DNA of 64,000 nucleotides. Source: Williamsia deligens (lineage in GTDB: Bacteria; Actinomycetota; Actinomycetes; Mycobacteriales; Mycobacteriaceae). Of the stretch, positions 44,169-60,446 are shown one piece after another. Made by a program: the position numbers and the translations under genes. The notes under the pieces are model-generated. The model saw only the letters and a list, made by a program, of their open reading frames with translations, was not told the origin of the DNA and ran no database searches. The first letter of the stretch is position 1; each line of letters starts with the position of its first letter. The stretch covers positions 744,001 to 808,000 of the forward strand of contig NZ_JAMTCI010000001.1 in assembly GCF_024171765.1 (NCBI RefSeq), given 5' to 3'.

Positions 44169-44909
44169 TCACCGTTCACCGGCGTCACCTCGGACCACTC
44201 GCTCGAGGAGATCGAGCTCCCCACGGATGCGGCCGATCACCTGCGCAGGGCCCGACATGCCGTCCTCGGCGTAGGACACGTCGGTCACCGAACGGACAGC
44301 CATGTCCGCCAGCGCCCGCGCCACCGACCGATCGGTGTCCACGCTGTCGGCCCGGTGCCACCACGCGATCCAGTTGAGCATCCCCACGATGCCCAGCGCA
44401 TGGGTCCGGGAGTCGCCCCGGACGAACTGGCCGGACTCCATCCCCGCCTCGATGACGGTGATGAGTTCCTTCAAGACCTGCCGTCGGCTCGTCCGGTAGG
44501 TCTCGGCGAGGTGTTCGGGGAGTTCGGCTTCCGAGCGGATGAGCAGACGAAAGCGTTCCTGGGTGCGGATCTGGTGTTCGGCGAGGCTTGTCGCCATCGT
44601 CCGGAGCTTGGACGCCGGATCCAGGTCGCCGGCATTGATGTCGTGCAGAGCTGCGGCCGGTTCCTCGACGATCTCACTCACCAGGCGGGCGAACAGGGCG
44701 TCCTTGTTCGCGACGTAGTGGTACAGCGCAGGACGTGTGAGGCCAGTCGCGTCCGCGATGTCCTGCAACGTCGTCCTGGCCAGACCACGCTCGGCGAACA
44801 GCCGAGTGGCCTGCTCCATGATCTCCCGCTCGACCAGTTCGCGCCGAGCCCCGCCACGCGTACCGCGATCGCCCTCGCGACTGTTCCCCTCACCTACCCC
44901 ATTCGCCAT
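44169..44909 (-). CDS. TetR-family regulator, last gene of the hyuAB operon
   Basis: A 246-residue TetR protein. A charged 22-residue head precedes the HTH (LQDIADATGLTRPALYHYVANKDALFARL). It starts 20 bp after the flavoprotein gene on the same strand and so is probably the autoregulator of the hyuA-hyuB-ligase-flavoprotein operon and of the divergent isomerase operon; its target would be the inverted CGATTATTyGACG motifs at 52736 and 52833. This link is inferred from position only. Confidence 0.85.
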   Translation of the reverse strand: MANGVGEGNSREGDRGTRGGARRELVEREIMEQATRLFAERGLARTTLQDIADATGLTRPALYHYVANKDALFARLVSEIVEEPAAALHDINAGDLDPASKLRTMATSLAEHQIRTQERFRLLIRSEAELPEHLAETYRTSRRQVLKELITVIEAGMESGQFVRGDSRTHALGIVGMLNWIAWWHRADSVDTDRSVARALADMAVRSVTDVSYAEDGMSGPAQVIGRIRGELDLLERVVRGDAGER

Positions 44910-44929
44910 CTGCGCAGGATAGAGGGCGG

Positions 44930-46510
44930 TCAGGCCGGTGCCGAGCGCACGGCTCGGGCCGTCAGCGACCGGTCATCCCGGACGGACATCGATACGAGAT
45001 CCGTCCGGTGGGCCACGACGCCGGCGACGAGGTCGTCCCGGTGGACCTCGGGGGCTTCCACGACCACGATCGCGTCGTTCTCCCGTCGCAACCGCTCTCC
45101 GAGGTCCAGGCGGGAGAGAACCGCGTCGCGATCGCTCGGACCGGTCACCCATACGACGGGAGCATGTGCGGTGGTGGCGACGACCCGGTCGGCGTCCATC
45201 GACCAGGCGGACCGCAGATCGGTGTCGACCACCGACGTCGTGGGGGCGTCGCGGAGGTCGTGTGTAGCGATGCGGTCTGCGAAGTGTCGACCGTGTCGGT
45301 CCAGGGGGCGAGCAAGTGTCCAACTGGCGATGTCGGTGGACGGGATGTCGCCGGGGGACACACCGGCGAACTCGGCGAGTCCCGTCCTCGCGACGTCGGG
45401 TGACGAGGACGCGAAGCGGTCCACGCTGACTTTCCCCGCCCGGGTCATGTAGGCGAGCATGAGCTGTGCTGGGTGCATGCCCGCGCGGCCCGGGAACGAA
45501 TCCCACCATGCCTCGCTGCGCCGCGCGATTGCCTGCAGGTGTTCCACCCCGGGCCGACGTCGGGACTCGTACTGCGCCAGGGCATCGGCCAGGGAGTCTG
45601 CGCGCTCGACGGCGGCGGTCAGGGCGATGGCGTCCTCCATCGCCAGCTTCGTACCGGACCCGATGGAGTAGTGCGCCGTGTGTGCTGCGTCGCCGAGGAG
45701 TACGACGTTGCCCCGGGACCACTGCGCGCACCGCACGGTCCGGAACCGGGTCCACCGGGTGCGGTTGCCGATCAGTCGATGGCCTGCGAGGCTGCCGCCG
45801 AAGGCGTCCGCGAGATAGTCCAGGGAGACCTGGTCGCTCTCGCCCGGGGGCGTCGACTCGGTCGACACATCGAACCCTGCTGCCCGCCAGGTCTGTTCGT
45901 CGGTCTCGACCAGGAACGTGCTGCGGTCATCCGCATAGGGGTACGCATGTGCGACGAACGTGCCGTGCTGCGTCGTCGCCGGCGTGAAGATCGCTGTGGG
46001 CAGCGCGAAGTCGGTGCCGCACCACAGGTACAACCCCTCGCCGACGGAGAATGTCGGCCTGAACGCTTCCGGGTCGGCGGTGCGTGTCGCACTGTTCACA
46101 CCGTCGGCGGCGACAATCAGATCGGCGTCGATCTCGTCGGCGGCGACGCGCGACCCGTAGACGAGTCGCACACCCGCGGCAGCGGCATGCCGGTGCAGGA
46201 TCGCGAGCAGCGTCGTACGCGCGATCGCGAGCAGGTTGCCGTGGGACAGTCGCGCCTCCCCGGCCGGGACCTGCATGGCCATGTCGTGCTGCCACGCCGT
46301 GGAGACGATGTCCTCGAACGACTGAGGATCGGCGGAATGCAGGTTCTGTTGAGTGCGCGAGGCGAGTCCGACGCCGAACCCGAACGTGTCCTCGGGAGCG
46401 ACCTGTTCGTAGAGGCTGACGTCGCAGTCGGGATGGCTGCGTTTGAGCAGCCGCGCCGCGTACAGGCCCCCGGGCCCACCGCCCAGGACGGCGATACGGT
46501 GAAGTCTCAT
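44930..46510 (-). CDS. FAD monooxygenase, like the flavoprotein part of salicylyl-CoA 5-hydroxylase
   Basis: A 526-residue PHBH-fold flavoprotein. The FAD site is AVLGGGPGGLYAARLLKRSH (residues about 7-26). LLGDAAHTAHYSIGSGTKLA near 275 is the sequence typical of salicylyl-CoA 5-hydroxylase and anthraniloyl-CoA monooxygenase, which hydroxylate aryl-CoA thioesters. Unlike the bifunctional versions, there is no old-yellow-enzyme C-terminal domain; instead there is about 120 residues of alpha/beta sequence that I cannot name. The gene lies 9 bp after the aryl ligase gene, suggesting an aryl-CoA substrate made by that ligase. Confidence 0.8.
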   Translation of the reverse strand: MRLHRIAVLGGGPGGLYAARLLKRSHPDCDVSLYEQVAPEDTFGFGVGLASRTQQNLHSADPQSFEDIVSTAWQHDMAMQVPAGEARLSHGNLLAIARTTLLAILHRHAAAAGVRLVYGSRVAADEIDADLIVAADGVNSATRTADPEAFRPTFSVGEGLYLWCGTDFALPTAIFTPATTQHGTFVAHAYPYADDRSTFLVETDEQTWRAAGFDVSTESTPPGESDQVSLDYLADAFGGSLAGHRLIGNRTRWTRFRTVRCAQWSRGNVVLLGDAAHTAHYSIGSGTKLAMEDAIALTAAVERADSLADALAQYESRRRPGVEHLQAIARRSEAWWDSFPGRAGMHPAQLMLAYMTRAGKVSVDRFASSSPDVARTGLAEFAGVSPGDIPSTDIASWTLARPLDRHGRHFADRIATHDLRDAPTTSVVDTDLRSAWSMDADRVVATTAHAPVVWVTGPSDRDAVLSRLDLGERLRRENDAIVVVEAPEVHRDDLVAGVVAHRTDLVSMSVRDDRSLTARAVRSAPA

Positions 46511-46519
46511 CTGTGTTCC

Positions 46520-48241
46520 TCAGTGTGTGTTCGGCGCGGTGGACGACATGCCGGTGCGGCCCTCCGGGGCATCGACCTTGGCTGCGATGTCGGCGCGCAG
46601 TGTCTTCTTGTCGACCTTGCCGACGGGCGTGGTGGGCAGGTCCTGCACCCATTCGAGACGTTCGGGCCATTTGAACTTCGCGACGCCGAGCACCGTCAGG
46701 TGCTGCTGCACCTCGCCCATCGACAGAGGGCGGCCTCTGCTGACCAGATAGGCGCAGGTGCGTTCCCCCAACCGCGGGTCGGGCATCGCGACGACCGCGG
46801 CGTCGACGATCTCGTGGTGGCGGACCAGCAGCAGCTCGAGCTCCTCTGCGTTGATCTTCTCGCCGCCGCGGTTGATGACGTCCTTGATCCGACCCTCGAT
46901 CACCACGCAGTCGAGCCCGTCGATGCTCTCGATGCGCGCAAGGTCACCGGTGCGGTAGAAGCCGTCGCTGGTGAAAGCCCGGGCGTTGTGGTCATCCGCG
47001 TCGAAGTACCCCGGGATCGTGTACGGCCCACGGCAACAGAGCTCGCCGATCGACCCCGCGTCGACCGGCTCCTCCGACCCGGGTTCGAGGATGCGAATCT
47101 CGTCCTCGCGCGCGATGGGAGTTCCCACCGTGGTCGCGCGTGCACGTGGTGACGCATCGCGGGGCGTGACCAGGAACAGTCCCTCGGACATCCCGAACAG
47201 TTGCCCCGCCCACCGGGATCGGCCGTCGTCGACCCGTGCGAACAGGTCGGGACGCACCTTTGCGCCGGACAGCAGCACCGTCGACAGGTGCTCACGCGCT
47301 TCGTCGAAGAGCGTGCCGCCGACCGCCTGGTAGTGCCCGTGACCGATCAGGACGTCGGTGACACGCTCGCGTGCCATCAGCGGGAACGCCTGCGACACAT
47401 CGGCCGTGGTGAGGACGAGGCATGCCCCCACGGAATGCGCCGCGTGCAGGCCACAGGTGATCCCGGCGTTGTGGACGATCGGGATCAGGTGTGCGACGCG
47501 GGTCTGTTCGGTCCACCCCAGACGACGGGCGTAGAGCAGTGCGTTGTCCCAGTACTCCACGTGCAGTCGTGGGATGACCTTGGGGACACCGGTCGTGCCA
47601 CCGGACAGCTGGAACGCGCAGATGTCGAGCGGGTCGACACCGGCGGTGATCTCGTCGACGATCCGCCGTGCCTCGTCGTCGCCGATCTGCGAGCCGAGGT
47701 CCTCGAGGGCGAACGTGACGTTGTCGGTCGGGTGTTCGCCGATGGTGACGATGTGGCGCAGTGTCGGATGATCACGACCGCGGTCGCGGGCGAATCCCAC
47801 GAGGTCGAACGAGAGCCCCGCCTCGACGATGTGCCCGACCGCACCCACCGCTCGCGAGATGTGGTCGATCTCGTGCGCGCGGTGTGCGGCGAGGGTCGCC
47901 ACCGGGATGAGTCCGGCCTTCACGCAGCCGTACCAGGCGAGGATCGTCGACATGCGGTTGGTCACCTGGAACAGGACCGGATCGCCGGGCATCAGGCCGA
48001 GTCCGACGAGGCCGGCCGCGATGCGGTCGGTTCGTCCGTCGAGCTCCGCGTAGGTGAGCGAGCCCTCCGCGGTGATGACGGCGGGGCGGTCCCGGTGCCG
48101 GGCCACGGTCTCGCGGAACCGGTGTGTCACCGGCGCGTCGGTCCACTCCCCGGCGCGTCGATACCGCTCGGCGAGATCGTCGGGGTGGGCGACGAGGCGT
48201 TGCCCCCACCGACCGTGAGACCTCGGGAGGGTGGCCGTCAT
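46520..48241 (-). CDS. Aryl-acid AMP/CoA ligase, DhbE/EntE/SdgA-like
   Basis: A 573-residue ANL-superfamily ligase. P-loop is QLSGGTTGVPKVIPRLHVEY, the aryl pocket and following region HNAGITCGLHAAHSVGACL resemble 2,3-dihydroxybenzoate/salicylate-AMP ligases, and the C-terminal lysine is in TPVGKVDKKTLR. With the adjacent salicylyl-CoA-5-hydroxylase-like protein, it probably activates a hydroxylated or amino-substituted benzoate as CoA or AMP ester, as SdgA does in Streptomyces salicylate degradation. No siderophore genes are near, so a mycobactin-type role is unlikely. It overlaps the hyuB stop by ATGA. Confidence 0.82.
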   Translation of the reverse strand: MTATLPRSHGRWGQRLVAHPDDLAERYRRAGEWTDAPVTHRFRETVARHRDRPAVITAEGSLTYAELDGRTDRIAAGLVGLGLMPGDPVLFQVTNRMSTILAWYGCVKAGLIPVATLAAHRAHEIDHISRAVGAVGHIVEAGLSFDLVGFARDRGRDHPTLRHIVTIGEHPTDNVTFALEDLGSQIGDDEARRIVDEITAGVDPLDICAFQLSGGTTGVPKVIPRLHVEYWDNALLYARRLGWTEQTRVAHLIPIVHNAGITCGLHAAHSVGACLVLTTADVSQAFPLMARERVTDVLIGHGHYQAVGGTLFDEAREHLSTVLLSGAKVRPDLFARVDDGRSRWAGQLFGMSEGLFLVTPRDASPRARATTVGTPIAREDEIRILEPGSEEPVDAGSIGELCCRGPYTIPGYFDADDHNARAFTSDGFYRTGDLARIESIDGLDCVVIEGRIKDVINRGGEKINAEELELLLVRHHEIVDAAVVAMPDPRLGERTCAYLVSRGRPLSMGEVQQHLTVLGVAKFKWPERLEWVQDLPTTPVGKVDKKTLRADIAAKVDAPEGRTGMSSTAPNTH

Positions 48242-50559
48242 CCGCCGGCCACCGCTGGGAGGATCTGCGCGAGGTCGGCCAGTCGGTCGGGATGATCGGC
48301 CGGGACCACGCCGGAGAACAACGCGGTCCAGCAGCCGGGGCAGCACTGCTGTCGGAACACCACCTCGGTGTCGACGTACTCCGACGGGTCGGATGTCACC
48401 TGGGCCCCCGCCGTGGAGGTCGGGCCCTCGTAGCGTGCAACGTCGAGTCGTCCGGTCGTCGTGTCGCCCAACAGGCGTCCACAGTGGGCGCAGCCCACGA
48501 CCTCGGCGTCCCCGATGGTCACCGTCGCGAGGTTGTCGTCGAGGCGACGCGCCCTCGTCAGGTCGATCGTCGCGTCCTGGGTCGCCGGCACGGTGGAGCG
48601 ATCCTTGCGCTCCCCGCGGATGTCCGCACGACGTCGCGTCGTGGCGTCGTCGTCGACGGCGCCGTCGGCGATGACCACGCCGTAGGTGTCCGTCGCCCCC
48701 GCCTCACTGATCTTGCCCTCGCGCAGATCGACGGCGACGGCGCCGGGATCGCGACGGATCGGGTCACCGTAGCCACCGCCTCCCTGCCAGTGCATGTAGA
48801 GGACCTCACCGGGCGCGAGGTAACTCTCGGCGTAGCAGGCACCGATCTCCTGCCGGCCGCCGATCTCGGCGACAGAACCGGGGATGGCACCATCGGAGAG
48901 GATCGTCGTGATCGCGGTGTCCCGGGCCAGGATCTCCAGACCGGTGTTGCCGGGCAGACCACCCGCGAGACCGGAGTTCTGCGCGACCGCTTTCCCGGCC
49001 GAGGCGAACACGAGTCCCATGGGAACGCTGGTGCCGTGCGGGGTGACCGCGAGGGATGCGCTCACGCCACCGCGGTGGCGGCCTGGGCCGCCGGAGTCGG
49101 GCTCCTCCCGACGCCACAGGGTGAGCAGCGGGTACAGGAACTCGGTCATCTCGGTGTCGGGGACCCGTCCCATCGGGATGCAGAAGAGGCCACCGGTGTC
49201 CATGCCATCGGCGACGGGGCGGGCACCGTATCCACCGGCCATCGGCTCCATCATGATGTTCAGGAACGGGACCGGGACCTCCCCGCGCTCGTCGAGTCCC
49301 GCGACCACCGCGGTGTCCCACGTGCCACAACACGATGCCTGGACGTTCTCACCGAACTCGATGTGGCGGTCGAGCATCTGAGCCAGACACTCCGCGATCA
49401 AATTGCCCGTCAACCACGCCGGCCCGATCGGACCCCGACTGACGGCAGCCGGGAATGTCGCGTTGTTGATCGTGCCCTCCTCCGACACGAGGTCGAAGCA
49501 GCGCATGAGACCGCCCGCGGACCAGGGGATGTCGCCGGCCAGGATGGGCAGCAGCGCCAGCATGACCCCGCCGCGCATGCCGGCGTAGGTGCAGTTGATG
49601 ACGCCGACCTGCGGGTCGGTTCCGGTGAAGTCGAAGGTCAGGTGGTCGTCACGCTTGGTCATCGCGACCGTGATCTTGTGGATGTCGCGGTCACCGACCT
49701 TCGCCTGGTCCTGATATCCCGTCGCGCGCCACGTCCCGTCGGGTAGATCGGAGAGCTTGCCGCGCAGTCGACTCTCGGCATCGGTCATCATGCGCTTCAT
49801 GACGGCTTTGACGGTGTCCGCCCCGTACTGCTCGATCACCGACAGCAGACGGTCACGGCCGACGCTGTTGGCGCCGACCTTCGCGCGCAGGTCCAATCCG
49901 ACCAACATGGGGACCCGGGACCGGCGCACCCACAGGTCGGCGACGTCTCGCTGCAACTCGAAGTCGCGCACCACCTTCACCGGGGGTGTCGGCAACGATT
50001 CGGAGAACACGTCGTTCGCGGACGGGTCGAACGACCCGAGCCCCGAGCCGCCGAGGTCGGGCTCGTGACAGATCGCGCTGGTCCACCCGAACAGCGCGCC
50101 GTCGTGGAACACCGGCTGGTACACGATCACATCGCTCTGGTGCAGGCCACCACCCACCCAGGGGTCGTTGCAGAGGAACATGTCCCCTTCGAGGATCCCG
50201 GGGTTGAGGGAGCGGTGCTGCAGGGTCCAGTAGATGGCCAGGTCCACGGCACCGACGAGCATCGTGTTGTAGAGGCCGACCTGCACCTCCTGACCCATCT
50301 CGTCGCTGACCGCGAAGTCGAAGTCGTTGGCGTCGGTGACGATCGGGGACCCGGACATGCGCTTGAGCGCCTCGCCCATCTCGTCGGTGACCGACCACAG
50401 CCGGTGCCGGATCACCTCGTAGGTCAGCGGGTCCACGGCGTCGATCTGCTCCTGCGTGACCGAGTGCACGGGGAGATCCGGTGGGAGAGAACGACGAAGG
50501 GCCTCGACGTCGACGGGTCGGCTCGAGAAGACCTCGGAACCGGGGATCGGTGCGGTCAT
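48238..50559 (-). CDS. HyuB/acetophenone-carboxylase-beta-like subunit with C-terminal Cys-rich domain
   Basis: A 773-residue hydantoinase B/oxoprolinase-family protein. It starts MTAPIPGSEVFSSRPVDVEA and has the HyuB core with FLCNDPWVGGGLHQSDVIV and FGENVQASCCGTWDTAVVAG. Beyond the usual end, a 110-residue extension carries CAHCGRLLGD and CCPGCWTALF, a CxxC-CCxxC set like a zinc ribbon and similar to the zinc-binding small subunit of acetone carboxylase. HyuA/HyuB pairs use ATP to hydrolyse cyclic amides or, in acetone and acetophenone carboxylases, to carboxylate ketones. Here the extension argues for the carboxylase type. It lies 4 bp after hyuA. Confidence 0.83.
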   Translation of the reverse strand: MTAPIPGSEVFSSRPVDVEALRRSLPPDLPVHSVTQEQIDAVDPLTYEVIRHRLWSVTDEMGEALKRMSGSPIVTDANDFDFAVSDEMGQEVQVGLYNTMLVGAVDLAIYWTLQHRSLNPGILEGDMFLCNDPWVGGGLHQSDVIVYQPVFHDGALFGWTSAICHEPDLGGSGLGSFDPSANDVFSESLPTPPVKVVRDFELQRDVADLWVRRSRVPMLVGLDLRAKVGANSVGRDRLLSVIEQYGADTVKAVMKRMMTDAESRLRGKLSDLPDGTWRATGYQDQAKVGDRDIHKITVAMTKRDDHLTFDFTGTDPQVGVINCTYAGMRGGVMLALLPILAGDIPWSAGGLMRCFDLVSEEGTINNATFPAAVSRGPIGPAWLTGNLIAECLAQMLDRHIEFGENVQASCCGTWDTAVVAGLDERGEVPVPFLNIMMEPMAGGYGARPVADGMDTGGLFCIPMGRVPDTEMTEFLYPLLTLWRREEPDSGGPGRHRGGVSASLAVTPHGTSVPMGLVFASAGKAVAQNSGLAGGLPGNTGLEILARDTAITTILSDGAIPGSVAEIGGRQEIGACYAESYLAPGEVLYMHWQGGGGYGDPIRRDPGAVAVDLREGKISEAGATDTYGVVIADGAVDDDATTRRRADIRGERKDRSTVPATQDATIDLTRARRLDDNLATVTIGDAEVVGCAHCGRLLGDTTTGRLDVARYEGPTSTAGAQVTSDPSEYVDTEVVFRQQCCPGCWTALFSGVVPADHPDRLADLAQILPAVAGG

Positions 50560-50563
50560 GGTG

Positions 50564-52687
50564 TCACTCCTGAGGAAGGTCGGCGGTGTCGACGGTGATG
50601 ACGAGATTTCCCAGACGGTCGATCCGGCCGGTGGTGTGGTGGGGGACGACGACGGTCGTCGTGGGGACCTCGATGATCGCGGGACCGGGGACGACGTGGC
50701 CCGCGCGCAGACCGGTGTAGTCGTAGACGGCGGTGTCGACGTAGCCGAGGCGACCGTCGAGACACACGGGACGACTCCCCACACGGGCGGTGCCCGCGTC
50801 CGACGAGTCGGCGTCGGCCAGCTCGGGCAGCTGGGTGGAGAACGGCAGCACACCGGTGCCCCGCACCCGGTAGGTGATGGCCTGGATGCCGGCCTCCCGG
50901 AATCCACTGTCCTTGCCGTACAGCTCGGCGTAGCGCCGTTCAAATGATTCTGCGGCCCCGACCATCTCGGTCGACGTCAGCTGTCCCGCCTCGACCGGGG
51001 TGGCCACCTCGGCGAGCTGCATCGAGTAGCGCATGTCGATCTCGCGCTCGACGATGACCGAGGCGAAGTCCAGGCCCTGCCGTTCGAGTTGCTCGCGCAC
51101 CTGCTCCTCGAGCATCTTGAAGTTCTGTTCTGCACGCGCGGGGTCCACCGGCATCGCGGCGGGGTCCGACAGTTCTCGCGCCAGCACGACATCGGAGGAC
51201 GCGAGCCCGTACGCGGAGAACGCCGACGCCACCTGTCCCAGCGGCACGACGACCCGGGAGACACCGATCTCCTGGGCGTAGAACCCACAGTGCGCGGGAC
51301 CCGACCCACCGAACGCGTAGACGATGAAGTCACGGGGGTCGTGCCCGGCCTCGACGACCGTCTTGCGCAGGAGATCGCCGGTCTGCGCGTTCTGGACCGC
51401 ATAGATCGCCGCGGCCGCGTCCTCGACCGATAGACCCAGGGGCTCGGCGATCCGCGTCCTGATGGCCTCGCGCGCCAGCGCGATGTCGAGCGGCTTGCGG
51501 CCACCGAGGAGCCCACGCGACGGGAGGATGCCGAGGACGAGGTTGGCGTCGGTGTTGGTCGGTTCGGTGCCGCCCTGGCCGTAACAGGCGGGTCCCGGCA
51601 CCGCCTGCGCACTGTGCGGACCGATCTGCAGGTTCCCGCCGGCGTCGACCCACGCGATCGCACCTCCGCCCGCGCCGATCGCGTGCACCTCCAGGGTCGG
51701 CACGTTGATGGGGTGGTGGTTGATGATCGTCGTCGAGGCGCGAACGGGTTCGCCGTCGACGACCAGACCGACGAGGAAGGTCGTCCCGCCGGCGTCGGTC
51801 GCGATGATGTTCTCGTGCCCGAGCTGTCGGCCCAGTGACAGCGACCCGATCACACCACCGGTGAGAACCGAGCCGACGGTCGAGATCGCGTTCGCCGGCG
51901 CCTCCGAGGCCTCGACAGCACCGCCGTTGCTCTGCATGACCAGTAAGGGGCCCGCCAGGTGTGCCGACCGCAGACGGGCCTCGAGCTCACCGAGGTAGTC
52001 GCGGAGCCCGGGCCCGATCTGCGTACTCATGATCGTCGTCGCGTTGCGTGCGAACTCGCGGATACGAGGGCTGACCTCGCTCGACAACGAGACGAAGACC
52101 GACGGGTCGATCTCGGCGACGATCTCGCGGATCCGCCGCTCGTGGGCCGGGTTGCGGAAGGACCACAACAGTGACACCGCGATTGCACGAATCCCCTGGT
52201 CCAGGAGCGCGGTCACCTGGAGGCGGACGTCGTCCTCGTCGAGCGCGACGATCACCCGTCCATCCCGGTCGACGCGCTCGGTGACCTCCAGGGCGTGTTC
52301 CTTCGGGATCAGGCCGTGGGACTTGCTCTGCGCCATGACGTTCTGCAGCTGCTCGGGCGATCGACCGAGGTACCGACCCTCGACGTTCATGATGTAGATC
52401 GAGTCCCGGTGACCCTTGGTCGTCAGGAACCCGACATCGGGGACCTGACCCATGACCAGGGCGTTGAGCGACGACGTCGTGCCGTGGGCGATGTGGTGGG
52501 TGTCGGCGAGCATGTCCTCGAGCGGCCGGCCGAGGTGCTCGGCCAACTGGTCGAGCACGTCCATCACGCCCTGCGAGTAGTCCGGCGGCGTGGACGGCGC
52601 CTTGCCGGCGACCACCAGCCCGTTCCCATCGTCGAGGACTGCGTCGGTGAACGTGCCTCCCACGTCCACGCCGATCACATAGGCCAT
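50564..52687 (-). CDS. HyuA/acetophenone-carboxylase-alpha-like ATPase subunit
   Basis: A 707-residue hydantoinase A/oxoprolinase-family protein of the ASKHA ATPase fold. The phosphate-binding turn is VIGVDVGGTFTDAVLDD (residues 4-20), the second AHGTTSSLNALVMG, and the ATP-site DAGGTTFLVGL around 297. It is the partner of hyuB and first in the leftward operon. A 17-bp motif 48 bp upstream faces an inverted copy before the divergent isomerase gene. The open frame extends 38 codons upstream, but ATG 52687 fits the conserved start. Confidence 0.88.
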   Translation of the reverse strand: MAYVIGVDVGGTFTDAVLDDGNGLVVAGKAPSTPPDYSQGVMDVLDQLAEHLGRPLEDMLADTHHIAHGTTSSLNALVMGQVPDVGFLTTKGHRDSIYIMNVEGRYLGRSPEQLQNVMAQSKSHGLIPKEHALEVTERVDRDGRVIVALDEDDVRLQVTALLDQGIRAIAVSLLWSFRNPAHERRIREIVAEIDPSVFVSLSSEVSPRIREFARNATTIMSTQIGPGLRDYLGELEARLRSAHLAGPLLVMQSNGGAVEASEAPANAISTVGSVLTGGVIGSLSLGRQLGHENIIATDAGGTTFLVGLVVDGEPVRASTTIINHHPINVPTLEVHAIGAGGGAIAWVDAGGNLQIGPHSAQAVPGPACYGQGGTEPTNTDANLVLGILPSRGLLGGRKPLDIALAREAIRTRIAEPLGLSVEDAAAAIYAVQNAQTGDLLRKTVVEAGHDPRDFIVYAFGGSGPAHCGFYAQEIGVSRVVVPLGQVASAFSAYGLASSDVVLARELSDPAAMPVDPARAEQNFKMLEEQVREQLERQGLDFASVIVEREIDMRYSMQLAEVATPVEAGQLTSTEMVGAAESFERRYAELYGKDSGFREAGIQAITYRVRGTGVLPFSTQLPELADADSSDAGTARVGSRPVCLDGRLGYVDTAVYDYTGLRAGHVVPGPAIIEVPTTTVVVPHHTTGRIDRLGNLVITVDTADLPQE

Positions 52688-52735
52688 GCGGAGCAACCCC
52701 TTCGGTCCGGTGGGTCGCCCCACATGTTTACGTTC

Positions 52736-52752
52736 ACGTCGATTATTTGACG
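52736..52752. promoter_or_regulatory. Shared 17-bp operator motif, hyuA side
   Basis: ACGTCGATTATTTGACG, matching ACGwCGATTATTyGACG; the inverted copy is at 52833-52849. It lies 48 bp upstream of the hyuA start. Confidence 0.65.
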
Positions 52753-52756
52753 CGAC

Positions 52757-52770
52757 TGACATCGCTGTCA
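52757..52770. promoter_or_regulatory. TGACA-N4-TGTCA palindrome between the two operons
   Basis: A perfect 5-bp inverted repeat (TGACA-TCGC-TGTCA) just inside motif A, in the divergent promoter region. It could be a further regulator site. Confidence 0.4.
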
Positions 52771-52832
52771 AGGACCGCGGGTGATCGACATCACCGACCA
52801 CGCCGACCGGGGCCTTGACTGGGTGTCACGAA

Positions 52833-52849
52833 CGTCGAATAATCGTCGT
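52833..52849. promoter_or_regulatory. Shared 17-bp operator motif, isomerase side
   Basis: Reading the minus strand, ACGACGATTATTCGACG matches motif A at 15 of 17 positions. It ends 44 bp before the isomerase start. Confidence 0.65.
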
Positions 52850-52893
52850 CAGCGTCAAAACACCTGAGAGCTCACCCGACGAAAGCTGCGCAC

Positions 52894-53649
52894 ATGGATG
52901 TCCACCACATCGGACTGGTCGTACCCAGCTCCAACGTGACCGTCGAGAGCGAGATCCCCGAGCTGCTGGGTCGCCACCCGGCGTCGCGGTTCTCGTTCCA
53001 CTCGACCCGCATGCGCATGCATTCCGTCACCCCGGCCCAGTTGGCAGCGATGAACGCCCAGCGCGAACGGTGCGTGCTCGAGATCGCCGATGCGGGGCCC
53101 GAGGCGATCCTCTACGCGTGCCTCGTCGCGGTCATGGTCGGCGGAGCAGGAGAGCATGCACGCGTCGAGGGCGCGATCGCCGAACAGCTGGCCACCGGTG
53201 GATCGGACGCCGTGATCCGGTCCAGTGCCGGCGCGCTCGTCGAGGCCCTGACCGATCTGGGTGCACGACGGATCGCACTCGTGACGCCCTACATGCGTCC
53301 CCTCGCCGCGCAGGTGGTCGCCTATCTCGAGGCCGAGGGGTTCGAGGTCGCGGACTGGGCAGCACTCGAGGTGGCGGACAACGCCGAGGTCGGTCGGATC
53401 CCGGGCGCCGACGTCATGGCGGCAGCACGCTCCCTGTCGCTGACCGGCGTCGACGCACTCGTCCTGTCCTGCTGCGTGCAGATGCCCTCGCTCGACCTGA
53501 TCGAGGCGGCCGAACAGGAGTTCGCGGTGCCGGTCCTGTCCGCCGCGACCGCCGGCGCGTACAGCATCCTGCGCAGCTTGGGGCTCGCGGCGGCGGTCGA
53601 CGGCGCGGGGTCTCTGCTGCGTTCCGACCTGAGCTCCGTCCCCGCCTGA
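52894..53649 (+). CDS. Maleate isomerase-like Asp/Glu-racemase-superfamily enzyme
   Basis: A 251-residue protein of the maleate cis-trans isomerase/arylmalonate decarboxylase branch. The N-terminal LVVPSSNVTVESEIP matches the PSSNxTxE signature. The two catalytic cysteines of maleate isomerase are present: ILYACLVAVMVGG (Cys about 76) and VLSCCVQMPSLDLIE (Cys about 193). Maleate isomerase converts maleate to fumarate in nicotinate, gentisate and similar pathways. It is the first gene of the rightward operon. Hydantoin racemase belongs to the same superfamily and often sits with hyuAB, but the motifs here favour the isomerase branch. Confidence 0.82.
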   Translation: MDVHHIGLVVPSSNVTVESEIPELLGRHPASRFSFHSTRMRMHSVTPAQLAAMNAQRERCVLEIADAGPEAILYACLVAVMVGGAGEHARVEGAIAEQLATGGSDAVIRSSAGALVEALTDLGARRIALVTPYMRPLAAQVVAYLEAEGFEVADWAALEVADNAEVGRIPGADVMAAARSLSLTGVDALVLSCCVQMPSLDLIEAAEQEFAVPVLSAATAGAYSILRSLGLAAAVDGAGSLLRSDLSSVPA

Positions 53650-53699
53650 CATCGGCACACGCCGTCGTACCACCGACCCACGTCTCCGAGAGGATTGCA

Positions 53700-54356
53700 A
53701 TGCCCCACAACGACCACAGGGTTCGAGGGGTCGACCACGTCGCGTACCCGACGTTCGACCCGACCGGGACCGTCCGCTTCTACCGGGACGTCCTGGGCTT
53801 CCCTGTCGTCCACTCCATCTGCGCCGCGGGGTGGGGTCCCGACAAGCACCCCGACTTCATCCACTTCTTCTTCGACATAGGCAACGACGACCGGCTGGCC
53901 TTCTTCTACTACTTCGGGCTCGAGCCGTTCGACGGCGGCCCGCTCGGGGACGTCTACTCCCGCTTCGCCGAGGACGTCCCGATCTTCTTCATCCGCTCCC
54001 GCCACCTCGCCATCCACGTGGACTCCGAGAAGGACCTGCTCGACTACCGTCGCCGCCTCGACGACTCTGAGTGGCCGGTGGAGATGCAGATACAACACGA
54101 GACCATCGAGTCGATCTACACCCACGACCCGAACGGCTACATGATCGAGATCACCCGTGCGATGCGCCCGGTCACCCCCCAGGAGGACCTGGACGCCAAC
54201 ATCACGATCGACGCGCTTCTGGACGTCGTTGCCGGCGGCGCGCCCAGCATGTCGGCGCTACTCGACCGCAAGGCGGAACTCATCATGGAGCGTGCGGTCG
54301 AATGGCAGGACCGGCACGACAAGCTCGCCGGTTCCTTCGAGGCGGTGGACCGGTGA
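53700..54356 (+). CDS. VOC-family protein, possible ring-cleavage dioxygenase
   Basis: A 218-residue single VOC domain (residues about 8-150) with a helical tail. HVAYPTFDPTGTVRFYRDVL carries the first metal His; YMIEITRAMR holds the usual Glu ligand. FIHFFFDIGNDDRLAFFYYF is aromatic-rich, suggesting a hydrophobic pocket. Extradiol-type dioxygenases share this fold, but substrate and activity are unknown. It overlaps the next gene by GTGA, so the operon is translationally coupled. The start follows a GAGAGGA site. Confidence 0.75.
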   Translation: MPHNDHRVRGVDHVAYPTFDPTGTVRFYRDVLGFPVVHSICAAGWGPDKHPDFIHFFFDIGNDDRLAFFYYFGLEPFDGGPLGDVYSRFAEDVPIFFIRSRHLAIHVDSEKDLLDYRRRLDDSEWPVEMQIQHETIESIYTHDPNGYMIEITRAMRPVTPQEDLDANITIDALLDVVAGGAPSMSALLDRKAELIMERAVEWQDRHDKLAGSFEAVDR

Positions 54357-54622
54357 CGACGCTCTTCATCCTCGACGTCCCCGAGAACAAGGCCGTCGCG
54401 GTGGTGGCAGCAGAGGGCGACGGTGTGAGCGTCGATCACCACGGACCGTACTTCCGTGTGACCGCGACGGGAACGATCACCATCGACCGCCGCGCCACCG
54501 GCTGTCGCCATGCCGTCTGGTACAGCTGCGTGGCAGGTCTGCTGGACGCGGCCATCACACAGTGGGACAAGGACGCGCTCGTCGTCGAGCACGCTGCAGG
54601 AGCTCCGAGTGCGGACGGCTGA
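54353..54622 (+). CDS. Unknown 89-aa protein of the catabolic operon
   Basis: Starts with a GTG overlapping the VOC stop (GTGA). VTTLFILDVPENKAVAVVAA is followed by RVTATGTITIDRRATGCRHA, VWYSCVAGL and ITQWDKDALVVEHA. The charged core and WYS/WDKDAL pattern look like a conserved small protein, but I do not recognise the family. No signal peptide or membrane span is visible. It may be a small subunit or substrate-binding partner of the VOC enzyme or the flavoprotein; this is speculation. It overlaps the next gene by 14 bp. Confidence 0.6.
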   Translation: MTTLFILDVPENKAVAVVAAEGDGVSVDHHGPYFRVTATGTITIDRRATGCRHAVWYSCVAGLLDAAITQWDKDALVVEHAAGAPSADG

Positions 54623-55847
54623 CGCGACGTCGGGTCTCGGCGCCGGGCGCTACATCGAATCCGCGGCAGCGCCCGAGTCGACGGTGACAACCGTTCACCA
54701 GTTGACCACCGCCGACGGCGCCACCGTCTCCGGCGTGCTGCGCACGGTCCCCGGTGCACAGACCGTCGTCGCCCTGATGCACCCACGCCAAGATCTCACC
54801 CACCACGTCCTCGTCCCCGAGCTCCTCAAACGAGGCTTCGCTGTGTGGACTCAGGGGACGCGGTCGGTCAACAACGACGTCGACCTCATCCACGAACAGG
54901 CGCTCCTCGACGTCGCGGCGGGACAGGTCTTTCTCCGGACGCGATCGTTCGGATCCGTTGTCACGGTGGGCCATTCCGGCGGTGGGGCATTGTTCGCCTT
55001 CTACCACCAGCAATCCGGAATGTCGCCGAGCAACCGACTCGCTGACACCCCCGCGGGCAGGCCGATCGACCTTGCATCCGCCGACATGCCCACACCGGAC
55101 GGTGCGATCTTCATGGCACCACACCCGGGTCAGGGCGTGTTGCTGGAACGCCTCATCGACCCGTCGGTCATCGACGAAGCGGACCCGTTGAGTGTCGACC
55201 CTGCCTTCGACGCCTTCAACCCGGACAACGGGTTCGCGGAACCACCGACGCCGGCGGAGTACAGCGACGAGTTCGTCGGGCGATACCGCGCCGCGCAGCG
55301 TCGGCGCATCGAGCGCATCGACGCTGTTGCCGCCGAACGGGTCGCGACTGCGAACGCGGCCAGGAGTCGCCACCGCGCCTCAGGCGACCCGGCTGACCGA
55401 CGCGACGCGATCGCTCCCCGGCTGCTCACCGTGTATCGCACAGACGCCGATCTGCGCTTCACCGACCTGCGGCTCAGCCCGAACAAACGACCCTATGGGT
55501 CGTTGTTCGGACGGCGACCCGACCTCACCGACTACGGGCTCGTCGGGTTCGCGCGCACGCTGACGCCGGAGGCGTGGATGTCGACTTGGTCCGCCACCAC
55601 CAGCCGCGCCGGACTGGTCCGCTGCGCGCCGGGCGTCGCGGCGCCCACGCTGTTCATCGAACTGACCGGCGACCAAGCATGTTTCCCCGAGGACGCGGAG
55701 GAGGCGGTCGCCGCGCTCGGGTCACCGGACGTCACCCACCTGTCCGTCGACGGGACCCACTTCGGCGGCCCCCTCCACCCCGGGGGCCCCACCGGCGCGA
55801 GCCTCGCCGCCGCACACATCGGCGGATGGCTCGACGATCGGTTCTGA
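54609..55847 (+). CDS. Alpha/beta hydrolase, last gene of the isomerase operon
   Basis: A 412-residue alpha/beta-hydrolase-fold protein. The nucleophile elbow is VTVGHSGGGALFAFYHQQSG (Ser near residue 120), and a C-terminal THFGGPLHPGG could hold the catalytic His. An acidic residue probably lies in the LTGDQACFPED stretch. It is much longer than a simple esterase because of an insert of about 150 residues (positions about 150-290). The start is a GTG at 54609 with GCAGGAG six bases before it, inside the previous gene. Substrate unknown; hydrolysis of an ester or thioester formed in the pathway is a fair guess. Confidence 0.78.
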   Translation: MRTADATSGLGAGRYIESAAAPESTVTTVHQLTTADGATVSGVLRTVPGAQTVVALMHPRQDLTHHVLVPELLKRGFAVWTQGTRSVNNDVDLIHEQALLDVAAGQVFLRTRSFGSVVTVGHSGGGALFAFYHQQSGMSPSNRLADTPAGRPIDLASADMPTPDGAIFMAPHPGQGVLLERLIDPSVIDEADPLSVDPAFDAFNPDNGFAEPPTPAEYSDEFVGRYRAAQRRRIERIDAVAAERVATANAARSRHRASGDPADRRDAIAPRLLTVYRTDADLRFTDLRLSPNKRPYGSLFGRRPDLTDYGLVGFARTLTPEAWMSTWSATTSRAGLVRCAPGVAAPTLFIELTGDQACFPEDAEEAVAALGSPDVTHLSVDGTHFGGPLHPGGPTGASLAAAHIGGWLDDRF

Positions 55848-55858
55848 CGTCACGTCAG
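55844..55858. terminator. Small hairpin between converging genes
   Basis: CTGACG-TCA-CGTCAG forms a 6-bp stem that covers the stops of both the rightward hydrolase and the leftward VOC gene. Weak evidence for a bidirectional terminator. Confidence 0.35.
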
Positions 55859-56616
55859 TGCAGCACCGACAGGACGTTGCCGGACGGGTCGGTGAACCAG
55901 GCGATGTCGGGGCCCATGCCGACGGAGCGGCCGCGCATGACGCCCTTCTCGTCACACGACATGCCGTCGTAGCGGAGCGTCTGGACACCCTTCGCCGCGA
56001 GGTCGTCGACGGCGACGTCGATGTCGGGAACGGGGATGTTGAGCACGGTGAAGCCGGCGGGTTCGTGGTCGGGCTTGGGGTAGACGATGACGCGCGTCCG
56101 CCGATCGAGATGCAGTGTCAGCAGGCCCATCTCGTTGCGGTCGGCGCGCAGGCCGAGGACGTCGGAGTAGAACGCCGCCGCCGCGTCGACGTCGCGGACG
56201 GCGAAGCCGCTGAACGGTGTCATCGACGCCTCCTGCGCCTCCCGCTCCATCGCGTCGGAGAGCCGCATTATCTGCACCAGGTTGCCGTCGGGGTCGAGCG
56301 CGGTGCCGAACCAGTTGCCGTCACGCTTCTCGACCGGCGCGCGCCATCCCAGCCCGAGCCGGTCGACGCGTGTGGCGGTGGCCTCCACGTCGTCCACCTC
56401 GACGTTCAGGATGACCCGGGCAGGCTCCTGGGTCGGGCCCGCGATGTCGTCGCGGGAGTCGATCATCAGATAGAAGCCGTCGAGGTCGACGACCTCGTAC
56501 CCCTTCTCGTCGCCGACCTTTTCGACGGAGGCGTCGAACACCTCCGCGTACCAGTCACGCAGACGGCCGGGGTCGTCGCTGGAGAGCAGGGCGCTGAAGA
56601 TCGTTCCGGTTGCCAT
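55855..56616 (-). CDS. Two-domain VOC protein
   Basis: A 253-residue protein with tandem VOC domains, residues about 5-120 and 132-253. TIFSALLSSDDPGRLRDWYA and FAVRDVDAAAAFYSDVLGLR open the two domains. DPDGNLVQIM and DPSGNVLSVLH close them. The function is unknown; the family includes methylmalonyl-CoA epimerases, thiol transferases and drug-binding proteins. It stops 8 bp from the catabolic operon and is on the opposite strand, so it is probably not part of that system. Confidence 0.82.
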   Translation of the reverse strand: MATGTIFSALLSSDDPGRLRDWYAEVFDASVEKVGDEKGYEVVDLDGFYLMIDSRDDIAGPTQEPARVILNVEVDDVEATATRVDRLGLGWRAPVEKRDGNWFGTALDPDGNLVQIMRLSDAMEREAQEASMTPFSGFAVRDVDAAAAFYSDVLGLRADRNEMGLLTLHLDRRTRVIVYPKPDHEPAGFTVLNIPVPDIDVAVDDLAAKGVQTLRYDGMSCDEKGVMRGRSVGMGPDIAWFTDPSGNVLSVLH

Positions 56617-58668: not shown

Positions 58669-59196
58669 GTGGACGTGAGCGATGGACCCGGTCCCGAGGC
58701 GGTGCTGGCGGTGTACGACGAAGCCCTTCCCGCCGTCTACGGCTATGTGGTGCGTCGCTGCGGTGACCGCGCTGTCGCCGAGGACGTCACGTCGGAGACG
58801 TTCCTCGCCGCGATGGACAGCATGCGACGCCCGGACCCGCCGACACCCACGACGGCGTGGCTCATCGGGGTCGCCCGTCACAAACTGGCCGACCACTGGC
58901 GCCGCCAGGCACGGACGCCCGAACCCGTCGGCGACACCCCCGACGCCGGCCACGACGACTGGGACGTCGAACTCGACAGGATGGTCGCCGAGTACACGCT
59001 CGCGCGCTGCACGCCGCTGCACCGGGCGGTCCTGACGCTGCGCTACGTCGACGACTGCACGGTCGGGCAGTGCGCGGAGGCACTGGGGCGCAGCGTCGCT
59101 GCGACCGAATCGCTCCTCACCCGCGCCAAGCACGAGTTCCGCACGCGCTACCCCCACGAGAAACACCCGAGCGCCGCGAGAGGAGGTCGGCGATGA
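58669..59196 (+). CDS. ECF-family RNA polymerase sigma factor
   Basis: A 175-residue sigma factor. Region 2 includes VRRCGDRAVAEDVTSETFLA and WLIGVARHKLADHWRRQ; region 4 includes RAVLTLRYVDDCTVGQCAEA, GRSVAATESLLTRAKHEF. The start is a GTG. It overlaps the next gene (a VOC protein) by ATGA. No separate anti-sigma gene is present; the head of the next protein resembles the short N-terminal region found in such sigma-linked proteins. The inducing signal and target promoters are unknown. Confidence 0.85.
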   Translation: MDVSDGPGPEAVLAVYDEALPAVYGYVVRRCGDRAVAEDVTSETFLAAMDSMRRPDPPTPTTAWLIGVARHKLADHWRRQARTPEPVGDTPDAGHDDWDVELDRMVAEYTLARCTPLHRAVLTLRYVDDCTVGQCAEALGRSVAATESLLTRAKHEFRTRYPHEKHPSAARGGRR

Positions 59197-60446
59197 CCAC
59201 CCACGACCCGCTGGCCGTCCTGCGCGCCGAGAACCACCCCGTCGCACCCGACCCCGCGTTCACCGAGCACCTGCGTGAGCGGTTGCGTCGCGGCGTCACC
59301 CTTCCTGAAGGAGTCGACATGACGATCACCGTGGACACACCCGTCGCGACCGCGCCGGCCGTGGAGCGCCCGGGGGCGTTGCCCTACCTCGCCGTCGACG
59401 ACGCGGCCGCCGCGATCGACTGGTACGTCGAGCATCTGGGCGCCCGCCTGCGCGGTACGCCCATCGAGATGGAGGACGGCCGCATAGGCCACGCCGAGCT
59501 GGAGATGGGCGGGGGTGCGGTGTACCTGGCCGAGGCGTTCGACGAGATCGGCCTCGCCGCCCCGGCTCCGGGCGCAGTGTCGGTGAGCCTGATGCTCGCC
59601 GTCGACGACGCCGACGCGGCCGTCACGCAGGCCGCCACCGGTGGCGCGACCGTGCAGCGCGAACCGTACGACGCCCACGGATCCCGCACCGGTGTCGTCA
59701 TCGACCCGTTCGGACACCGCTGGATGCTGTCCGGGCCGGCACCGACCGGGATCGCCGCCGACGACCGGGCCCACCCCGGCGACGTCGTCTACCTGTCGCT
59801 GTGGTGCCCCGACGCCGCACGCGCCGAGGCGTTCTACTCCTCGGTCCTGGGCTGGGAGATCGACGACGGTCAGGTGACGAACCTGTCGCACCGTCTCGGC
59901 ATCTCCGAGGCGCCGGACCGCCGGACGATCTTCGCCGTGTACGCCGTCGACGACCTCGACGCGGCACGATCGGCCACTCTCGCCGCCGGCGGGTCCGTGC
60001 CCGACAACACCGCCGCGCGGCACGATGCCGTCGATCTGGTCGATCCGCAAGGAGTCGAGTTCGCGGTGACCGTCCCGGACCCGTCGGTCGGCCGCGGCGA
60101 GATGCACCCGTCGGGACACGGCGAGCTGACCTACCTGACCGTCCTCACCCCAGACAGTGCGGCGTACCGCGACTTCTACGGGCAGGTCCTCGGCTGGGAG
60201 TTCTCGGCCGGTCGGATCGACGACGGGTGGGAGGTCGTCGACAGCAGACCGCAGATCGGGATCGGTGGCGGGGCACAGACATCGGAGGCTGTCGCGATGT
60301 GGACTGTCGATGACATCGAGGCCGCGGTGCGGCGGGTCGTCGAGGCCGGTGGTCGCGTCGTCGATCCGGTCGCCCGGCAGCCCTACGCGACCACGGCCGA
60401 GTGCGTCGACGACCAGGGCATCCGCTTCTGGCTCGCGCAGTACTGA
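59193..60446 (+). CDS. Triple-VOC protein coupled to the ECF sigma factor
   Basis: A 417-residue protein with a 35-residue head (PLAVLRAENHPVAPDPAFTE, then HLRERLRRGV), then three VOC domains at about residues 50-180, 190-300 and 310-417. The head resembles the short cytoplasmic start of proteins encoded after actinobacterial ECF sigma genes, and I see no membrane span. The pair is coupled by ATGA, with GAGGAGG upstream. VOC domains may bind a ligand and tell the sigma factor about it, or detoxify the inducer; this is inference. An internal ATG at 59320 could give a form without the head. Confidence 0.78.
   Translation: MTTHDPLAVLRAENHPVAPDPAFTEHLRERLRRGVTLPEGVDMTITVDTPVATAPAVERPGALPYLAVDDAAAAIDWYVEHLGARLRGTPIEMEDGRIGHAELEMGGGAVYLAEAFDEIGLAAPAPGAVSVSLMLAVDDADAAVTQAATGGATVQREPYDAHGSRTGVVIDPFGHRWMLSGPAPTGIAADDRAHPGDVVYLSLWCPDAARAEAFYSSVLGWEIDDGQVTNLSHRLGISEAPDRRTIFAVYAVDDLDAARSATLAAGGSVPDNTAARHDAVDLVDPQGVEFAVTVPDPSVGRGEMHPSGHGELTYLTVLTPDSAAYRDFYGQVLGWEFSAGRIDDGWEVVDSRPQIGIGGGAQTSEAVAMWTVDDIEAAVRRVVEAGGRVVDPVARQPYATTAECVDDQGIRFWLAQY

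Follow-up and report, generated by a model that had tools for sequence, protein, structure and literature searches.

Positions 44,169 to 55,847 of a 64,000-nucleotide stretch of the Williamsia deligens genome (contig NZ_JAMTCI010000001.1, positions 744,001 to 808,000; the whole stretch is referred to here as the window) contain nine genes in two divergent operons, which would together encode one aerobic catabolic pathway controlled by one TetR-type repressor. The pathway would be initiated by HyuA-HyuB, using bicarbonate and ATP to convert an enol, ketone or phenol into an aromatic (or aryl-keto) acid. A DhbE-like ligase, as suggested by its family and a conserved Asn, would activate an ortho-hydroxy or ortho-amino acid as the CoA thioester, and a flavoprotein would hydroxylate the ring at the position para to that ortho substituent, in the manner of salicylyl-CoA 5-hydroxylase. 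The ring would then undergo cleavage between C1 and C2, catalyzed by a VOC protein with a 2-His-1-Glu site and its 89-aa partner. An alpha/beta hydrolase would hydrolyze the maleyl product to maleate and a keto acid, which would be pyruvate for a salicylate-like substrate, and maleate isomerase would convert the maleate to fumarate. With a salicylate-type acid, ring opening would be of the gentisate type, giving a maleyl keto acid and from it maleate and pyruvate. We lean toward a CoA-dependent ring-cleavage route to maleate, with the VOC and 89-aa proteins as the dioxygenase, while an intermediate of the salicylate type is put forward tentatively.

A preliminary description of this DNA had assigned nine open reading frames (ORFs) to two divergent operons, and all nine were confirmed at their positions, with start codons picked by homology and the broad family assignments backed by Pfam and NCBIfam. 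The features are as follows, with the number of related loci containing each gene (out of 80, see below) given in brackets:

44169..44909, minus strand: TetR-family regulator (Pfam TetR_N and TetR_C_24; 77/80)
44930..46510, minus strand: FAD-dependent monooxygenase, the flavoprotein (NCBIfam NF006101, PDB VioD; 76/80)
46520..48241, minus strand: aryl-acid adenylate/CoA ligase of the DhbE/salicylate-AMP ligase kind (PDB 5wm2, His-Asn motif; 76/80)
48238..50559, minus strand: HyuB, beta subunit with a fused gamma-like domain (Pfam Hydantoinase_B, metal residues D79, H140, D143 and H165; 68/80)
48292..48555, minus strand: gamma-like zinc ribbon, HyuB residues 669-756, with Cys690, Cys693, Cys740 and Cys743 (hhalign, BLASTP)
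50564..52687, minus strand: HyuA, ATP-binding alpha subunit (Pfam Hydant_A_N, Hydantoinase_A and Hydant_A_C; 68/80)
52738..52751, unstranded: candidate operator copy 1, GTCGATTATTTGAC (conserved palindrome)
52834..52847, unstranded: candidate operator copy 2, GTCGAATAATCGTC (conserved palindrome)
52894..53649, plus strand: maleate cis-trans isomerase (PDB 2xec; 74/80)
53700..54356, plus strand: VOC-fold protein, proposed catalytic subunit of a ring-cleaving dioxygenase (Pfam Glyoxalase; 80/80)
54353..54622, plus strand: 89-aa MmoB/DmpM-like partner of the VOC protein (hhalign, PF02406, VOC fusions; 80/80)
54609..55847, plus strand: alpha/beta-hydrolase-like protein, Ser123/Asp355/His384 (conserved triad; 79/80)

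The junctions are tight, as had been claimed. In the leftward operon, hyuA and hyuB are separated by 4 bp, hyuB and the ligase gene overlap by 4 bp, and gaps of 9 and 20 bp separate ligase from flavoprotein and flavoprotein from tetR. In the rightward operon, the VOC gene overlaps the small-protein gene by 4 bp, which in turn overlaps the hydrolase gene by 14 bp. Six of the seven within-operon junctions thus overlap or span at most 20 bp, the exception being the 50-bp gap between isomerase and VOC.

Related loci were collected through a VOC-profile scan with one genome per species, giving 215 relatives, and gene presence in the closest 80 was scored by bit-score cut-offs; the VOC count of 80/80 holds by construction, the VOC protein being the search query. 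All nine genes lie within the fetched stretch in 63 of the 80 loci, in six different gene orders (36, 17, 3, 3, 2 and 2 loci), and several of the remaining 17 loci run off the end of the fetched stretch or of the contig. This neighborhood check establishes the gene set as co-conserved across actinobacteria, including Rhodococcus, Gordonia, Williamsia, Nocardia, Mycolicibacterium, Amycolatopsis, Pseudonocardia, Actinomycetospora, Klenkia, Geodermatophilus and Streptomyces, and excludes the possibility that it is not. Among ORFs of at least 90 aa passing a GC3 filter, every other sense gene family was limited to at most 13 of 85 loci. The small protein is present in 68 of 401 genomes of the window's family, and in the 30 of these 68 places that were fetched, the window's own included, the VOC and hydrolase genes are adjacent in 30/30 and the isomerase is found in 29/30.

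A core of the cluster also occurs without HyuAB. Among plasmid records, VOC was found in 16, all of them among the 18 with the hydrolase. Nine proteobacterial records were found, and the five loci that were read each contain the hydrolase, ligase, VOC, small protein (fused or separate), flavoprotein and isomerase. HyuA and HyuB are absent from the stretches of these five plasmid loci, and also from the stretches read in a Tsukamurella plasmid and in Rhodococcus sp. USK13. Since the core is present without it, HyuAB is an added front end. All five proteobacterial loci additionally contain a thioesterase similar to that of Variovorax (two of the five confirmed as 4HBT_2), suggesting that there the free acid is favored over the thioester for cleavage.

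Two plasmids carry variants of the cluster. In Mycobacterium avium plasmid pP7a (NZ_CP076857.1, 320335-349900; locus L008), a related ligase, hydrolase, VOC, small protein and flavoprotein monooxygenase (FMO) are accompanied by genes for a cytochrome P450 and a PDR/VanB oxidoreductase; the FMO lies within a longer protein annotated as heme-binding, and the cluster is interrupted mid-way by an IS1245-type element. In a Streptomyces chartreusis plasmid (NZ_CP108821.1, 508451-529068; L141), an isomerase-VOC-small protein-hydrolase-ligase arrangement lies a few kb from genes for a cupin, a fumarylacetoacetate hydrolase and a mycothiol-dependent maleylpyruvate isomerase, with transposase genes in between.

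The ligase had been described as DhbE/SdgA-like, which is borne out by its nearest solved relative, a salicylate-AMP ligase (PDB 5wm2, E 1.7e-95), its score lying below the cut-off of the DhbE-type (2,3-dihydroxybenzoyl)adenylate synthase model (368.2 vs 723.55 bits). In DhbE, the Asn of a His-Asn motif hydrogen-bonds the substrate hydroxyl (excerpt of PMC10296737), and this motif is present in all the aligned ligases displayed save the distant L010, in clusters with and without HyuA alike. In an alignment judged by eye, a Cys occupies the Ser240 position in HyuA-bearing clusters, and not in L007, L059, L082 and L085. Compared with the window, the 68 HyuA-bearing loci have ligases 57-71% and flavoproteins 50-67% identical, and L059, L082 and L085, in which HyuA is missing although 3.6-5 kb of sequence precede the first gene of the cluster, have ligases 40-43% identical. 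This split of ligase identity by the presence of HyuA suggests that HyuAB is tied to one ligase type.

The flavoprotein was likewise correctly placed near salicylyl-CoA 5-hydroxylase: the model for this enzyme (NF006101) is the nearest in NCBIfam, matching the N-terminal FAD domain (residues 5-366) with 325.5 bits, under the cut-off of 1078 bits for this bifunctional protein, and PDB VioD is matched with E 6.8e-39. The C-terminal ~150 aa (residues ~370-526; window 44930-45400) form an extension absent from the proteobacterial flavoproteins. Its origin as a remnant of the oxidoreductase (OYE) domain of the bifunctional hydroxylase was considered and found no support (hhalign 0.2%, control 0.1%).

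HyuA retains the ATP motifs DVGGTFTD, D(A/V)GGT and AVPGP, and HyuB retains the Asp-His-Asp-His metal residues, as described for the family in an excerpt of PMC8453981; motifs and metal site are shared by the ketone carboxylase (Acx/Apc) and Hyd branches, and both are present in HyuAB. According to an excerpt of PMC5214803, which divides the family into three branches, acetone and acetophenone carboxylases possess a gamma subunit, a Cys4 zinc ribbon, that hydantoinases lack. A zinc ribbon (CxxC, 46 residues, CxxC) lies within the last 130 residues of HyuB, with the four Cys present in 70/70 sequences. Aligned by hhalign with acetone-carboxylase-gamma proteins, the HyuB end gives 97.0% (E 1.1e-10), rising to 98.4% (E 8.6e-15) with two haloarchaeal gammas added, compared with 0.05% for an unrelated control. 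The two haloarchaeal plasmids encode relatives of HyuAB (40-43% identical) with gamma as a separate gene, annotated as acetone carboxylase subunit gamma and scoring above the Pfam cut-off, and BLASTP of HyuB 669-756 against one of these separate gammas gives 35% identity (E 1.9e-10). Among the nearest HyuAB relatives listed, one has the separate gamma gene followed by a gene for an AMP-binding protein. Because of the gamma domain fused to HyuB, HyuAB looks like an ATP-dependent carboxylase, and is probably an enzyme of the acetone/acetophenone carboxylase kind with gamma fused to beta. The preliminary description had allowed either a cyclic amidase or a ketone carboxylase, of which the fused domain favors the latter.

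Several observations weigh against this assignment. The Pfam gamma model misses the window HyuB, matches the HyuB ends of only 2 of 21 relatives (best E 0.026) and has no match in the W. deligens genome, and hmmsearch of PDB with the HyuB C-terminal domain finds no gamma chain. The best NCBIfam models are those of caprolactamase subunits (518.8 bits for HyuA, 217.4 for HyuB), with lower scores for acetophenone carboxylase models (400 and 188.9 bits), all of them far below cut-off. The PMC5214803 excerpt also reports no direct part of the gamma subunit in carboxylation, and advises caution in assigning function to distant family members. For these reasons, HyuAB is termed carboxylase-like.

The alternative to a carboxylase, held to be unlikely yet deserving of attention, is an ATP-dependent lactamase or hydantoinase, which would open a cyclic amide (e.g. 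an oxindole-type lactam) to supply an ortho-amino aryl acid to the ligase. In addition to the caprolactamase model scores, this would agree with the mention of a lactamase in anaerobic indoleacetate metabolism (excerpt of PMC5214803), and ortho-amino acids could satisfy the ligase Asn equally well. It is countered by the fused gamma domain, by the nearest relatives listed, with their separate acetone carboxylase gamma gene and, in one, the AMP-binding protein next to it, and by the loss of the vicinal disulfide of caprolactamase CapB (described in the PMC8453981 excerpt), where Phe-Cys replaces Cys-Cys in the alignment.

Two further sets of HyuB relatives were observed. In a Natronosalvus halobius plasmid (L142), HyuA-HyuB-gamma lies near a 720-aa bifunctional protein of FAD hydroxylase/OYE type, which is 35% identical to the window flavoprotein over the FAD domain. 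In plasmids of Niveispirillum (L144), Mycobacterium branderi (L145) and Rhodococcus opacus (L146), other HyuBs align with the window HyuB through residues 741-767, indicating that the beta-gamma fusion exists outside this cluster.

Returning to the ring-cleavage route, the VOC protein had been named as the likely ring opener, and the conservation of its metal site supports this role. The triad His13, His102 and Glu150 is present in 95/95 sequences from actinobacteria and proteobacteria, and the fourth metal position on strand beta4, assigned from the fold, is occupied by Phe69 in all 95. An AlphaFold2 model places the triad on strands beta1, beta5 and beta8 (mean pLDDT 82.4, the five models ranging from 82.4 down to 45.9). 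A VOC fold with a 2-His-1-Glu site is characteristic of type I extradiol dioxygenases; scores against named dioxygenase models are far below their cut-offs (catechol 2,3-dioxygenase 17.5 bits, HsaC 16.6 bits). Pfam identifies no other dioxygenase among the nine genes, and a gentisate 1,2-dioxygenase model that matched 4 of 14 control genomes has no match in the W. deligens genome.

The 89-aa protein, previously described as unknown, is present in every one of the 80 loci and is well supported, from profile comparisons and gene fusions, as a distant MmoB/DmpM-like effector and partner of the VOC protein. Its profile aligns with MmoB/DmpM proteins with an hhalign score of 92.2% (E 5.8e-7; control 0.17%), and 22 of 45 members match PF02406 at E <=0.1, the window protein itself lying under the gathering score (18.2 vs 25 bits). 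Pfam identifies no diiron hydroxylase partner among the nine genes. A search of PDB sequences returned only toluene-4-monooxygenase effector matches at E ~0.5, behind an unrelated designed protein; the structure model has a mean pLDDT of 93.7. The small protein is fused to VOC in some Burkholderiales, namely in Variovorax, Cupriavidus and Caballeronia (L134, L139 and L140), and in one of the two copies on a Streptomyces plasmid (L006). A further match in genome G049 (E 1.6e-4) was taken as chance, since no VOC gene is nearby (L011) and the profile missed it. The VOC and 89-aa proteins are proposed, on this comparative evidence, to form a two-part ring-cleaving dioxygenase. The plasmid of Streptomyces sp. 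NBC_01450 (L006, 2540-3420 and 16036-16893) contains both a separate VOC-small protein pair and a VOC-small protein fusion in one cluster, adjoining methylmalonyl-CoA-mutase-like and carboxylase genes.

The VOC fold serves many reactions, and the only full-length PDB sequence relative of the window protein (9u42, E 3.8e-7) is labelled just 'Glyoxalase', so that an isomerase, epimerase or lyase acting on a CoA ester, with ring cleavage taking place elsewhere, has to be weighed. This is judged quite unlikely in view of the three-ligand site without a polar fourth ligand, the lack of another dioxygenase among the nine genes, and the genome-wide lack of a gentisate dioxygenase match, a search that extended to this dioxygenase family alone.

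At the end of the proposed dioxygenase route, the isomerase is, by sequence, a close relative of the Nocardia maleate isomerase, with matches to the putative maleate isomerases PDB 2xec and 2xed (E 1.3e-116 and 3.3e-115) and also to the maleate cis-trans isomerases 4fq7 and 4fq5. Cys76, Cys194, Tyr133 and Asn14, corresponding to the two Cys, Tyr and Asn that we take to be the catalytic set, are present in 83/83 sequences, and conversion of maleate to fumarate, the last step proposed earlier, is strongly supported by homology. The hydrolase retains Ser123, Asp355 and His384 in 92/92 sequences; the window protein has no Pfam match, with weak Abhydrolase matches in two relatives, and a PDB sequence search gave nothing. 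Hydrolysis of maleylpyruvate to maleate has precedent (excerpt of PMC5658364).

Taken as a part list, the ligase, flavoprotein, VOC protein with small protein, hydrolase and isomerase suggest the sequence aryl acid, aryl-CoA, hydroxyaryl-CoA, ring cleavage, hydrolysis, maleate and fumarate. The order of steps in the preliminary description (activation, hydroxylation of the CoA ester, ring opening, maleate, fumarate) fits the families, with the amendment that HyuAB is not part of the core. Two findings run counter to the route: a search with the Variovorax thioesterase gave no strong-scoring match in those actinobacterial clusters that were checked, and the isomerase is absent from some related clusters (L006, L008, L009/L122, L138 and G231). 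The most far-reaching version is judged unlikely. In it, HyuAB, as an ATP-dependent aromatic carboxylase, would form a salicylate-type acid by ortho-carboxylation of a phenol-type enol. This acid, carried as CoA thioester, would be cleaved by an oxygenase of a new class, a VOC dioxygenase that an MmoB/DmpM-type effector switches or gates, and would end as maleate and fumarate with no need for a thiol-dependent maleyl isomerase.

An acid with a five-membered heteroaromatic ring, of the pyrrole- or furan-2-carboxylate type, would also lead to maleate, which would comprise ring C2-C5 with the carboxyl lost, and the alpha/beta hydrolase would then be an amidase or a lactone hydrolase. The ring heteroatom could fill the ortho position read by the ligase, and none of the results fixes the ring size. 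The closest relatives of the ligase and FMO, however, are enzymes for six-membered rings or indoles, and such a substrate, with the hydrolase role that it implies, is regarded as improbable.

The intergenic region between hyuA and the isomerase gene contains the palindrome GTCRANTANTYGWC in a two-copy arrangement, at both promoters, with the window copies at 52738 and 52834. Allowing at most one mismatch, at least one site is found in 39/39 divergent loci of the same layout and at least two in 38/39, compared with one site in 0.26% and two sites in 0 of 780 shuffles; the count is not independent, because the motif was derived from these same loci. In the window itself, 11/100 shuffles reach the observed match count at the same tolerance, so that the weight of the motif lies in its place and conservation. 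Exact sites number four in the whole genome, two being those described here and two lying inside predicted genes (crude gene calling), and among 14 loci of other layout, exact sites are present in 7 and absent in 7. A TGACA-type palindrome was also considered as operator, and was replaced by GTCRANTANTYGWC as it occurs only in the window and 5/39 other loci. The TetR protein is predicted as the likely repressor of both operons, and the two palindrome copies between the operons suggest that a single regulator probably controls both, in support of the two coupled divergent operons described earlier. That nine genes serving separate pathways are adjacent by chance is hardly credible and was rejected, since they stay together through six rearrangements in 63/80 loci and share operators.

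The flanking genes, on the left proteins of NmrA-like and alpha/beta hydrolase type and a TetR regulator, and on the right a two-domain VOC protein and lipase-like proteins, do not recur in related loci. Two more multi-VOC-domain proteins are encoded just right of the cluster (window 58857-60446 and 55855-56616), and are not conserved with it.

Parts of the cluster resemble several known systems. The sdg-type CoA-dependent salicylate pathway, which runs via salicylyl-CoA and gentisyl-CoA, shares the succession of an aryl-acid AMP/CoA ligase and a flavin hydroxylase acting on the CoA ester. In the present case the cluster encodes no gentisate dioxygenase and the genome gives no match to the model for it; the cluster has a VOC-small protein pair and a maleate exit instead, with the HyuAB carboxylase-type enzyme in front. 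Nicotinate and nicotine pathways (NicE type; PDB 4fq7) share the last step from maleate to fumarate, and to our knowledge lack a CoA ligase, HyuAB and a VOC-small protein pair. The MmoB/DmpM effectors, to which the 89-aa protein is remotely homologous, act on diiron monooxygenases, the only enzymes from which we know this effector principle; here the partner would be a VOC protein, sometimes fused, with no diiron hydroxylase among the nine genes.

A CoA-dependent salicylate pathway is named in the excerpt of PMC13215587. The gentisate-maleylpyruvate-maleate route with the hydrolase HbzF (PMC5658364 excerpt) follows the same logic, with direct hydrolysis of the maleyl keto acid to maleate, and differs from the present cluster in its hydrolase, which here is alpha/beta-hydrolase-like, and in the in-cluster isomerase that here would take maleate to fumarate. 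Acetone and acetophenone carboxylases, as far as the PMC5214803 excerpt describes them, share the ATP-binding alpha, metal-binding beta and zinc-ribbon gamma as well as an adjoining CoA ligase gene, whereas here gamma is fused to beta, there are two genes only with no alpha-prime or epsilon, and the ligase belongs to the salicylate type. Caprolactamase CapAB and hydantoinases (PMC8453981 excerpt) share the two subunits, ATP motifs and Asp-His-Asp-His metal site, but lack a gamma domain, and the caprolactamase vicinal disulfide is absent here. The preliminary description knew of no pathway with exactly this set, and no description of it was found in the openly licensed papers searched. The enzyme kinds are known singly; as far as searched, what is new is their combination, together with a HyuB-gamma fusion in such a context and a VOC protein with an MmoB/DmpM-like partner.

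If the proposed pathway is correct, a route for aromatics lies unannotated in many genomes of common soil actinobacteria (Rhodococcus, Gordonia, Williamsia, Pseudonocardia, Amycolatopsis and others), and the name hydantoinase is wrong for its first enzyme. The pairing of an MmoB/DmpM-like effector with a VOC oxygenase would take a mode of regulation beyond the diiron monooxygenases, and a HyuAB able to form aryl acids from CO2 would be attractive for biocatalysis. The compact cluster, present in genera commonly grown in laboratories, leaves each of these steps open to testing.

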